From assembly GCF_023015865.1 (NCBI RefSeq), contig NZ_JALKBC010000005.1:124001-188000 (forward strand): DNA of 64,000 nt. Direction: 5' to 3'. The notes beneath the pieces were generated by a model. The model was not told the DNA's origin, searched no databases, and saw only the letters and a program-made list of their open reading frames with translations. A program made the position numbers and the translations under genes. Source of the stretch: Arenibacter sp. F26102 (GTDB lineage: Bacteria > Bacteroidota > Bacteroidia > Flavobacteriales > Flavobacteriaceae). How positions within the stretch are numbered: position 1 is the stretch's first letter; every line of letters starts with the position of its first letter. Below are positions 3,137-6,084 of this stretch, one piece after another.

Positions 3137-3166
3137 TTTGAATCGAAATAATTTTTTCTATATTTG
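3137..3166 (+). promoter_or_regulatory. Promoter for the first sigma factor gene
   Basis: TTTG (3137-3140), an 18-nt spacer, then TATATTTG (3159-3166): a full match to the Bacteroidota housekeeping promoter (TTTG, 17-23 nt, TAnnTTTG). The start site would be near 3172, leaving a long leader of about 115 nt before the ATG at 3288. No equally good match precedes the second copy at 4605. Confidence 0.65.
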
Positions 3167-3287
3167 ATGCGTAATAAACCCTAAATAGCCTATACGTAAC
3201 ACAATTACTTTTTTAAAATCTTATTTGCTCTAATGCACTTGTCAAAGAAAACAGGTCTAGCGTTTTAGCCTAAAAAAAGTAAATTGT

Positions 3288-3869
3288 ATGGAACTATTAA
3301 TTGAGGATTCAGTTTTAGTAAGAGACTACATGAATGGGGACGAAAAAGCCCTAGAGACATTGATCAACCGTCACAATCAACGACTTAGCAGTTTTATTTA
3401 TTCCAAAGTCCAAGATCGGGAAACCACCGAAGATATTTTTCAGGATACCTTTATTAAGGTCATAAAGACCTTAAAAAAGGGCAATTACAATGAAGAAGGA
3501 AAATTTTTACCTTGGGTAATGCGGATTTCACATAACTTAATCATCGACTATTTTAGGAAGAATAAACGAATGCCCAGGTTTGAAGGCAATAGTGATTTTA
3601 ATATCTTCTCCATAATTAGTGATGACAAGTTAAATGCAGAAAGACAAATTATTAAAGATCAAATAGATTTTGACCTGAATATTTTGATCAAAGAATTGCC
3701 GAAGGATCAAATGGATGTTTTGGAAATGCGTTTATATAAGGATATGAGCTTTAAGGAAATATCCGAAAATACGGGGGTAAGTATTAATACTGCTTTGGGC
3801 AGGATGCGTTATGCACTTATTAACCTTCGTAAGATCGTAGAAAAGCACAACATAATTTTAACGAATTAA
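3288..3869 (+). CDS. Sigma-70 family RNA polymerase sigma factor, copy 1
   Basis: Small group-4 (ECF-type) sigma factor of 193 aa, directing RNA polymerase to a promoter subset not identifiable from sequence. Region 2 spans about residues 20-95 (DIFQDTFIKVIKTL, then FLPWVMRISHNLIIDYFRKN). Region 4 with its helix-turn-helix spans about 130-185 (MSFKEISENTGVSINTALG). It is 158/193 identical without gaps to the gene at 4605, so the two are tandem duplicates. Each is followed after about 72 nt by a gene for a 47-aa protein. No conventional anti-sigma gene is adjacent. Confidence 0.93.
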   Translation: MELLIEDSVLVRDYMNGDEKALETLINRHNQRLSSFIYSKVQDRETTEDIFQDTFIKVIKTLKKGNYNEEGKFLPWVMRISHNLIIDYFRKNKRMPRFEGNSDFNIFSIISDDKLNAERQIIKDQIDFDLNILIKELPKDQMDVLEMRLYKDMSFKEISENTGVSINTALGRMRYALINLRKIVEKHNIILTN

Positions 3870-3940
3870 TACGCTTTATAACTGCCTTTGGTTAATTTCT
3901 TCATAACACTTGCGTTATTTGTCCATAGACGTATATTATT

Positions 3941-4084
3941 ATGGAGAAATTTACCGTTACTACTAAGAACAAATGCACACTAATGTCCACACGCAGGTCG
4001 AAAATAGATTTTTTACTTAATTACTCTAAATCGCTGCACATCATTAAATGTAATGATGAACTGCAGGAACATTGTTTAAACTAG
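3941..4084 (+). CDS. 47-aa small protein downstream of sigma factor copy 1
   Basis: The frame from ATG 3941 to TAG 4084 encodes 47 residues beginning MEKFTVTTKNKC and ending in LN. I call it because an equal-length frame lies at the same distance after the second sigma gene, and the two products are 22/47 identical without gaps. Shared are the MEK start, NKC-L, and a core I-FLL-YSKSL-II-N, ending LN. There is no signal peptide or membrane segment. One conserved Cys (position 12) is present. Function is unknown; a partner or regulator of the sigma factor is inferred only from context. Confidence 0.8.
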   Translation: MEKFTVTTKNKCTLMSTRRSKIDFLLNYSKSLHIIKCNDELQEHCLN

Positions 4085-4604
4085 GATTTCCAATTGTTTA
4101 GCCTAGAGTCTTAACTATGTCGTTAACGTATGGTTGCTTCTTGGCTATATGTAGTATGGGGAATGGTTATGTAATGGCTTTAAACATTACTACAAACACT
4201 CCATTCTAGATTATCTTATACTTTTCCAATTACTTTTTGCGCATAAACTCTGTAGACAAGGAATTTACTTGTTCGTAAAGGATGGCGTATCTCTACTCCT
4301 TAATATATAGGTCTGTTTATCATTAATAGTACCTATAATAATAAACACTCTTCCTGCTGGTCCCATTAAGCTCATCTAACTTCAATTTTGGCCAATTATT
4401 ATGTGTAAAATAAGAAAATCGGCATTTGACATCAATTAATGGGGGTTTTACAACATAGTTTTTTTCACACATGGGCATTTATATACTTTTATCCTGTTAC
4501 TAATCAACAAAGAAGATTTTTAGTCTTCATTTAAAGAAGAAGTAACAAAAAAAGTCCAAACCGAAAGGGGAGGCCCCTAGTTTAACCAAAAAACAATAAT
4601 TTGT
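4085..4604. other. 520-bp non-coding gap between the two sigma modules
   Basis: No convincing gene in either direction. Small stem-loops are visible: GAAGA-TTTTTAG-TCTTC near 4512-4528 and AGGGG-AGG-CCCCT at 4566-4578. The latter ends 26 nt before the second sigma ATG and could affect its translation. No exact TAnnTTTG box was found, so the second sigma gene may use another promoter type. Confidence 0.45.
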
Positions 4605-5186
4605 ATGGAACTGCAAATAGATGACTCAGTATTAGTAAAGGATTACATTAATGGTAATGAAAAAGCTTTAGAGGTTTTGATCAACAGGCACAACCAACGT
4701 ATTAGTAGCTTTATTTATTCTAAGGTTTTGGACCGTGATGTTTCAGAAGATATTTTTCAGGATACCTTTATTAAGGTAATTAAAACCTTGAAAAAGGGAA
4801 ATTATAGCGAAGAAGGTAAGTTTTTGCCTTGGGTTATGAGAATTGCCCATAACCTGGTAATCGATCACTTTAGAAGGAATAAAAGAATGCCAATGTTTGA
4901 AGGGAATGATGATTTCAATATCTTTTCTGTAATTGGTGATGATAAACTAAATGTTGAAAAGCAGCTTATCAAAGATCAGATTGATTCAGATTTAAATTTA
5001 TTGATCGAGGAATTACCGGATGATCAAAAAGAAGTTCTTTTAATGCGTATCTACAGGGATATGAGCTTCAAGGAAATTTCAGAAAATACCGGTGTTAGTA
5101 TTAATACTGCCTTGGGGAGAATGAGATATGCGCTTATTAACCTAAGAAAAATCATAGAAAAGAATAATATCGTTTTAACGAATTAA
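4605..5186 (+). CDS. Sigma-70 family RNA polymerase sigma factor, copy 2
   Basis: 193 aa, same layout as the copy at 3288: region 2 around residues 20-95 and the region 4 helix-turn-helix (MSFKEISENTGVSINTALG) around 150-175, where the two proteins are nearly identical. Of the 35 differences many are conservative and they lie mainly in the N-terminus and the region 2-4 linker. Promoter recognition may therefore overlap while control differs. Both genes share TTGTATGGAACT around the start codon. A gene for a 47-aa protein follows at 5259. Confidence 0.93.
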   Translation: MELQIDDSVLVKDYINGNEKALEVLINRHNQRISSFIYSKVLDRDVSEDIFQDTFIKVIKTLKKGNYSEEGKFLPWVMRIAHNLVIDHFRRNKRMPMFEGNDDFNIFSVIGDDKLNVEKQLIKDQIDSDLNLLIEELPDDQKEVLLMRIYRDMSFKEISENTGVSINTALGRMRYALINLRKIIEKNNIVLTN

Positions 5187-5258
5187 TAGGTCATAGGCCG
5201 AAGAGTACAATATTTCCAATTTAGTGGCGTTATCTTAACATAACAATACTATAATCCT

Positions 5259-5402
5259 ATGGAAAAAATTTACTCTGAGCATCAAAACAAGTGTAAACTT
5301 GCGAAAGCAAGTCCTGAAACTATCAAGTTCCTATTGGGCTATTCCAAATCATTGCAAATAATTGAATATAATAATGTTCAGTTTGAAAATAATTTAAACT
5401 AG
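5259..5402 (+). CDS. 47-aa small protein downstream of sigma factor copy 2
   Basis: ATG 5259 to TAG 5402, 47 residues beginning MEKIYSEHQNKC. It aligns without gaps to the product of 3941-4084 (22/47 identical), with the conserved core FLL-YSKSL-II and the terminal LN. Identical length, spacing (72 nt after the sigma stop) and retained core argue for a real gene. It is followed at once by a bidirectional terminator, so sigma and small protein are probably one transcript. Function unknown. Confidence 0.82.
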   Translation: MEKIYSEHQNKCKLAKASPETIKFLLGYSKSLQIIEYNNVQFENNLN

Positions 5403-5403
5403 C

Positions 5404-5439
5404 ACAAAAAATCCCACCTTACGAGTTGGGATTTTTTGT
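5404..5439. terminator. Bidirectional terminator between the small gene and nth
   Basis: ACAAAAAATCCCA (5404-5416) pairs perfectly with TGGGATTTTTTGT (5427-5439) around a 10-nt loop, giving a T tract on both strands. The nth stop codon (5419-5421) lies in the loop, so the hairpin serves both convergent transcripts. Confidence 0.85.
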
Positions 5440-6084
5440 TTTATAATAGGCTTGTAACACTGGTTTTCTGCCAATAGTTTTGGTTATAATGTCTTTTTCC
5501 AAATTCCATCCCCTTGCCGGTGAGTATTCCCGTCCGTACCATATGATCTGTAAATGAAGATCGTTCCATATTTCTTTTGGAAATAATCTTTTGGCATCCC
5601 TTTCTGTTTGAACCACATTTTTTCCGTTGGAAAATCCCCATCGGTACATGAGTCTATGTATATGGGTGTCTACAGGAAACGCAGGAATGCCAAATGCTTG
5701 TGAAACCACAACGCTGGCAGTTTTGTGTCCAACTGCCGGCAATTGTTCCAATAATTCAATTTCTTTAGGAACTTGTCCGTCATATTTTTCAATTAAGATT
5801 TTAGAAAGTCCATAAATACCTTTCGATTTCATAGGGGATAGACCAACAGGTTTAATTATTTCCCTAATCTCATCAGCTGTCATTTTTACCATATCATAGG
5901 GATTGTCCGCTTTGGCAAATAATAATGGTGTAATCTTATTGACACGCACATCCGTACTTTGTGCAGATAATAATACAGCAATTAAAAGGGTATAGGGGTC
6001 TTTGTGGTCCAGGGGAACGGGAATGGTCGGGTAAAGTGCTTGTAAAGTTTCAATGGTAAAGTTTACTTTTTCCGCTTTCGTCAT
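5419..6084 (-). CDS. nth: Endonuclease III-like DNA glycosylase/AP lyase lacking the Fe-S cluster
   Basis: Base-excision repair enzyme for oxidised pyrimidines. 221 aa with the helix-hairpin-helix LPAVGHKTASVVV, catalytic Lys121 and catalytic Asp139 in FPVDTHIHRL. Classical Nth ends with a CX6CX2CX5C [4Fe-4S] loop. Here that region reads WYGREYSPARGWNLEKDI and the whole protein has no cysteine, so the cluster cannot form. Both catalytic residues are kept, so activity is likely. It is convergent with the sigma module and diverges from bcp. Confidence 0.92.
   Translation of the reverse strand: MTKAEKVNFTIETLQALYPTIPVPLDHKDPYTLLIAVLLSAQSTDVRVNKITPLLFAKADNPYDMVKMTADEIREIIKPVGLSPMKSKGIYGLSKILIEKYDGQVPKEIELLEQLPAVGHKTASVVVSQAFGIPAFPVDTHIHRLMYRWGFSNGKNVVQTERDAKRLFPKEIWNDLHLQIIWYGREYSPARGWNLEKDIITKTIGRKPVLQAYYKTKNPNS

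Follow-up and report, generated by a model that had tools for sequence, protein, structure and literature searches.

A putative miniature anti-sigma factor encoded behind an ECF sigma factor gene of Flavobacteriaceae, present as a tandem pair in Arenibacter sp. F26102

In class I anti-sigma factors (ASDI; RseA, RskA, ChrR, RsiW), helices 1–3 lie on sigma4 of the cognate ECF sigma factor and, after a linker, helix 4 lies on sigma regions 2.1/2.2, covering the core-RNAP-binding face; helix 4 is the variable, specificity-setting part of these proteins (PMC7406223). Only 6% of Bacteroidetes ECF sigma factors have recognised class I anti-sigma neighbours, and the control of the rest was left open (PMC7406223). 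CnrY, the class II anti-sigma factor of CnrH, has a short sigma-binding part of two helices on sigma2 and sigma4, the last of which sits on sigma2 in the manner of ASDI helix 4 (PMC7406223). Within the phylum, the EcfO–Reo pair of Bacteroides/Phocaeicola is linked to oxygen stress, with Reo spanning from the cytoplasm to the cell surface (PMC13114119), and SigP of Porphyromonas gingivalis, a 193-aa ECF sigma factor, has a directly binding partner in PorX, a large response regulator (PMC4800418).

The locus described here lies in a 64,000-nt stretch of the Arenibacter sp. F26102 genome (NZ_JALKBC010000005.1, positions 124,001 to 188,000), referred to below, as a whole, as the window. The first-pass annotation had reported two 193-aa sigma genes, each followed by a 47-codon frame at 71 nt (copy A) or 72 nt (copy B); on recounting these numbers were exact (Table 1), and realignment of the two small proteins returned the same gap-free identity of 22/47 residues. 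The sigma factors are identical at 158/193 residues (82%), and copy B is 99% identical to sigma B of Arenibacter echinorum. Both copies exceeded the curated cut-offs for Sigma70_r2 (PF04542) and Sigma70_r4 (PF08281) and scored 89.2 and 85.5 bits with TIGR02937 (cut-off 42.9); by these profile matches they are ECF sigma factors (sigma70 group 4), with region 2 and region 4 present. The module is flanked on the opposite strand by genes that we take, from recognition of their sequences, to be uvrA-like on one side and endonuclease III-like on the other.

Table 1. Positions of the features of the tandem sigma factor locus, numbered from the first nucleotide of the window
Feature	Positions	Strand	Basis or remark
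TATATTTG, matching the TAnnTTTG -7 box; probable promoter of the sigma A transcript	3159-3166	+	conserved in alignment A8
Sigma A leader stem: 5' arm 3203-3214 (AATTACTTTTTT), 3' arm 3273-3284	3203-3284	+	
Sigma A, ECF sigma factor copy A, 193 aa	3288-3869	+	ORF, profile hits
CGTT box, -10-like, before small A; the -35-like CAATA block is not conserved in copy A	3913-3916	+	
Small A, partner of copy A, 47 codons; apparent anti-sigma relative without the N-terminal bundle	3941-4084	+	
Sigma B, ECF sigma factor copy B, 193 aa, the more conserved copy	4605-5186	+	
CAATA-N15-CGTT, ECF-promoter-like, before small B	5208-5231	+	
Small B, partner of copy B, 47 codons	5259-5402	+	
Stem AAAATCCCA..TGGGATTTT and T run, candidate terminator common to small B and the endonuclease III-like gene	5406-5437		inspection only
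Endonuclease III-like gene, convergent	5419-6084	-	

Like the class I proteins, the small partner is encoded next to an ECF sigma gene, and its longer relatives across the class consist of an N-terminal domain, a linker and a helix-4-like segment; the profile that detects this N-terminal domain also detects RskA-type N-termini. The 47-aa form departs from class I in lacking helices 1–3 and any sensor or membrane-spanning domain, and in its C-terminus, where a hairpin closing with LN is predicted. It shares with CnrY the shortness of the putative sigma-binding part, although its model has one helix and a hairpin in place of two helices; a profile search with the small family did not find CnrY among solved structures, and no sequence relation between the two was found. 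EcfO–Reo is an ECF sigma/anti-sigma pair, but the partner here is 47 aa long without a membrane segment, and identity with that system was ruled out by the published description of Reo as large and envelope-spanning (PMC13114119). The similarity to SigP–PorX is a likeness, not an established orthology of the sigma factors; PorX is a different kind of protein.

The sigma factor was present in 286 of 300 genomes of the family (E ≤ 1e-40). Eighty Flavobacteriaceae loci were picked with the sigma protein alone, independently of the small frame, and 79 of them carried a small homologue closely 3' of the orthologous sigma gene, as a frame of 45–50 codons that ends in N, usually LN. The single exception was Salegentibacter echinorum (L116), in which the sigma gene is kept and the small frame is gone; at positions 4576–4900 of that locus the CAATA/CGTT element considered below has been lost together with the frame. 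All 18 sampled genomes of the genus carried the small gene, 16 of them in at least two copies, and the source genome holds exactly two. The 47-aa profile found members across the order, mostly directly 3' of the same sigma gene. In a few Flavobacteriales lineages (L170, L172, L173, L174, L175) the small gene stands apart from the sigma gene, either elsewhere in the genome or 2–3 kb downstream. For Bacteroidia outside the family, 68 loci (L195–L262) were chosen by the sigma factor alone; by our own count the profile search placed a partner no more than 400 nt away (E < 0.01) in 48 of these and detected none in the other 20.

In an alignment of 129 members of the 47-aa family (A4), M1, S29 and N47 were invariant, and Y5, T21, F24, L25, L26 and E43 nearly so. 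Pooled over 24 close, partly non-independent pairs, the small gene had a dN/dS of 0.255 and the sigma gene one of 0.031. Because of this purifying selection, together with the linkage to an orthologous sigma gene, the small frames are, as judged from comparative data, real genes, and both expectations of the first-pass annotation, homologues behind the same sigma gene in other genomes and unequal synonymous and non-synonymous rates, were borne out. Small A and small B had no match in Pfam or NCBIfam, no model of either library matched more than 2 of the 129 members (best E 0.0066), and sequence and profile searches of the PDB with the small family gave no match. A decaying, functionless remnant of an anti-sigma factor might also be shorter than its relatives outside the family and evolve 3.5–4 times faster than the sigma factor, as this protein does; a dN/dS of about 0.25, the constant residues across A4 and retention in essentially all genomes of the family already contradict such an explanation, which we regard as highly improbable.

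Tandem pairs were found in about 40 of the 300 family genomes, a recurrence far beyond chance, and this, with the linkage of the small frame to the same sigma gene, upholds the earlier description of the locus as a duplicated module of sigma factor and small partner. On the sigma tree the tandem state was confined to one well-supported clade comprising Arenibacter, Maribacter, Muriicola, Eudoraea and relatives, within which some genomes, such as those of Cellulophaga and Flagellimonas, are single-copy. Copy A branches were long and copy B was conserved, with mean distances of 0.286 (AA) and 0.106 (BB). The first-pass annotation had further read the faster divergence of the small partner as a change of specificity after duplication, and this did not survive comparison: the mean ratio of small to sigma distance was 3.66 for paralogues within one genome and 3.53 for single-copy genomes, and the duplication belongs to one subclade, whereas the partner is class-wide. 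As single-copy genomes give the same ratio, the small protein is, on these distances, fast-evolving everywhere, at about 3.5–4 times the rate of the sigma factor, and its divergence is no sign of duplication-driven change. The tandem copies of the Arenibacter/Maribacter clade are a duplicated pair whose members may be insulated from each other. Sigma and small distances were correlated (r 0.67 among single-copy pairs, and about 0.2 when copies A or copies B were taken by themselves), but this was set aside as evidence of binding, being confounded by descent.

Outside the family the partner is longer, reaching 60–70 aa in much of the class and 72–90 aa in several lineages. Most of these proteins start like M.K(T)(F/Y)(T/S) and contain a segment P...(T/S)I..IL.YSKAL, often with a tail ending in LN, and the long forms are extended at the N-terminus by a stretch resembling DDVIRYIYNE...E...A...D.EL...Y..L. 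In L157, L179, L280, L286 and L289 a single protein has this N-terminal domain together with a tail ending in N. By profile–profile comparison, A4 matched an alignment of intermediate forms (A6) with a probability of 97.9 (E 3e-13), and A6 in turn matched an alignment of nine long forms built without annotation (A5) with a probability of 99.2 (E 9e-20); between A4 and A5 the probability was 90.6. The A5 profile found the N-termini of 240–360-aa membrane proteins (E 2e-6 to 4e-5 on re-searching), many of them encoded 1–12 nt 3' of, or overlapping, other ECF sigma genes; those of L294, L296, L298, L299, L300 and L303 lie directly behind such genes. RskA_C (PF10099), the C-terminal domain of anti-sigma-K, was present in 4 of 8 examined (L294, L296, L297, L303). 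The NCBIfam 'anti-sigma factor' model NF052375 matched L245, one of the long forms, in its N-terminal part at 7.5e-6; this value is under the model's cut-off and is taken as corroborative only.

At one further locus (L290, positions 1162–1746), a protein of ~195 aa is encoded 11 nt 3' of the orthologous sigma gene and has an anti-sigma-like N-terminus, an ILEFSKS segment and an apparent transmembrane helix (assigned by eye); a soluble partner and a membrane anti-sigma form here appear within one family.

The claim that no ordinary anti-sigma gene accompanies the pair holds for the window, but needs amending in that the small gene, as judged by the long forms and the profile chain, would itself be a reduced relative of anti-sigma genes. 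The reading that fits best is that the 47-aa protein is a class I anti-sigma factor reduced in size, without the sigma4-binding bundle but with the helix-4-like segment kept. We infer loss of the bundle rather than gain because the long forms are widespread in the class.

Structure prediction was carried out with AlphaFold in two jobs, the first with alignment rows from the genome search and related loci, the second with rows from the window and related loci only. Small B alone was predicted as a helix (residues 19–31) followed by a beta hairpin (32–45), with pLDDT 83.5 and pTM 0.49, and Foldseek found no match to this model below E 2.6 among solved folds. In the profile comparison the predicted helix aligns with the C-terminus of the long forms; the three-helix bundle corresponding to ASDI helices 1–3 is absent from the 47-aa proteins and was found by profile in the long homologues. 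Sigma B, the gap and small B, which share a frame, were also modelled as one read-through chain, with Ser in place of the stop codons and with paired rows taken from other loci where the two genes are in frame. Its parts were confident but small B had no defined placement (pTM 0.48), and the model speaks neither for nor against binding.

Taken together, we put at about two in three the probability that the small protein is a sigma2-directed miniature anti-sigma factor under sigma-driven feedback. Each module would then consist of an ECF sigma factor and a miniature cytoplasmic anti-sigma factor, descended from a soluble, zinc-less class I anti-sigma factor of ~80–90 aa whose gene follows the same sigma gene throughout Bacteroidia. 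The three-helix bundle at the N-terminus, which provides the grip on sigma4 in class I, would have been lost; the parts kept would be the equivalent of helix 4 (P..ETI.FLLNYSKAL) and, at the C-terminus, a pair of strands with LN as the last residues. Because class I helix 4 binds sigma 2.1/2.2 and blocks core RNAP, the mini-protein probably grips sigma2 alone; it would hold the sigma factor in this way under non-inducing conditions, and a signal would free it.

For the inducing signal, an orthologue with a published phenotype was available in Riemerella anatipestifer. The RA0C_1534 oligonucleotides upP2, qP1, qP2, downP1 and CompP2 have exact matches in locus L307 (region 1277–2049) on and about the orthologous sigma gene, a single copy 52% identical in its product, with a 44-aa small homologue behind it; on the strength of this primer identity, the L307 sigma gene appears to be RA0C_1534. 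Expression of RA0C_1534 rises in response to H2O2 and when fur is mutated, and cells that lack the gene are H2O2-sensitive (PMC6557517). The deletion phenotype described there concerns the sigma gene only, and the available portions of that report make no mention of the small gene behind it (PMC6557517). By analogy, the signal for the flavobacterial modules is probably oxidative or iron-related.

The same orthologue bears on the possibility that the 47-aa protein, having lost the bundle, no longer inhibits the sigma factor it binds and serves it instead as a co-activator, chaperone or stabiliser. The part thought to bind sigma4 is gone, PorX provides a precedent in the phylum in that it stabilises SigP (PMC4800418), and FecR-type N-termini are needed for activity (PMC7406223). 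Helix 4 of class I, however, covers the core-RNAP face of sigma2 (PMC7406223), so that the segment kept favours inhibition, and in Riemerella complementation with the sigma gene alone sufficed, the published fragment (primer CompP2) ending just before the small gene. A purely supporting role is on these grounds unlikely.

A promoter-like element precedes the small gene. Of 141 distinct family loci, 140 have CGTT at a distance of 15–46 nt ahead of the start of the small gene. On its 5' side, at a spacing of exactly 15 nt, CAATA accompanies every copy B gene and almost every single-copy gene; copy A lacks it. In 1.35 Mb, CAATA-N15-CGTT occurred 70 times in sigma–small gaps and 4 times elsewhere, one of these 4 also being such a gap; when another 78 loci, mostly from outside the family, were examined, 43 had CAATA and CGTT at a spacing of 14–16 nt. 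The element resembles an ECF promoter, conserved across Bacteroidia, and a putative ECF motif of F. psychrophilum also has a CGT box at -10 (PMC9723704). If the sigma factor reads CAATA-N15-CGTT, the partner closes a negative feedback loop; the sequence suggests that the sigma factor drives its own inhibitor. The duplicated promoters seem to have diverged, copy A keeping CGTT with a changed upstream block. Searching the source genome for CAATA-N15-CGTTA gave 13 matches against 11 in the reversed control; the motif is not enriched genome-wide, and therefore no regulon can be predicted. A SigP-like link to type IX secretion through gldN upstream regions was rejected (1 strict and 2 loose matches among 30; 5 loose in the control stretch).

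Having its own conserved promoter-like element, the small protein might instead be a product of the regulon without sigma contact, the first and most conserved target of an ECF promoter, and the position of the small gene away from the sigma gene in L170, L172 and L173 agrees with this. Against this stand the homology with anti-sigma domains that the long forms reveal, the constancy with which the gene neighbours one sigma family, and its duplication together with the sigma gene; we consider such a product distinctly unlikely. Barely credible is the view that the conserved region acts at the level of RNA or DNA, be it as promoter, leader or small RNA, with the frame incidental: the conserved CAATA-N15-CGTT and the flanking inverted repeat before the frame fit it, but substitutions in the frame fall preferentially on synonymous sites, homologues throughout the class are recovered with a protein profile, and no Rfam family matched the small-gene region at gathering level. 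The inverted repeat, GTTAT-N6-ATAAC at 5229–5244, directly follows the C of CGTT; its arms seem to covary in some loci (GTTC/GAAC, GTTG/CAAC), and it is a candidate operator or RNA stem.

The leader of the first sigma gene of each locus (3159–3287 in the window) was also found to be conserved, with TATATTTG, GCCTATA and then the arms ATTACTTTTT ... AAAAAGTAAT; TAnnTTTG is the -7 box of the primary flavobacterial sigma factor (PMC9723704). The arms form a 13-pair stem that is conserved and covarying in 47 loci and closes 2–5 nt before the start codon, the 3' arm in the sigma A leader ending 3 nt before it. Over the 47 sequences, 84% of cells paired, against 42–62% when the arms were slid, and 39 cells were changed on both sides, against 22 in shuffles; in the outer pairs AU, GC, UA and CG types all occur. 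RNAalifold returned no pairs on the leader alignment, probably because of loop gaps, and the named stem was counted instead. Folding of the window leader was only slightly better than that of shuffles (z -0.94), no Rfam family matched the leader, and no such stem was seen by inspection before copy B. The stem may be a translational control element, which in the mechanism proposed above would add a further layer of control on the sigma mRNA.

The fuller proposition, that these proteins form an undescribed miniature anti-sigma family in essentially all Flavobacteriaceae, derived by deletion of the sigma4 bundle and inhibiting through a sigma2-directed helix and hairpin, is in our judgement evenly poised. 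Were it true, some of the apparent scarcity of anti-sigma partners in the phylum would be explained, and each tandem pair would comprise two copies insulated from one another, with specificity set by the 47 residues of the partner. A class-wide ECF sigma factor, one member of which has an H2O2-resistance phenotype, would have a partner that in flavobacteria has shrunk beyond recognition. If confirmed, the protein would be among the smallest anti-sigma factors and a natural test of whether a grip on sigma2 only is enough to inhibit, and the natural tandem pairs, about 40 in number, would be at hand for studying sigma/anti-sigma insulation. The family profile could serve to annotate many overlooked genes, and annotation is probably passing over a brake on these sigma switches.
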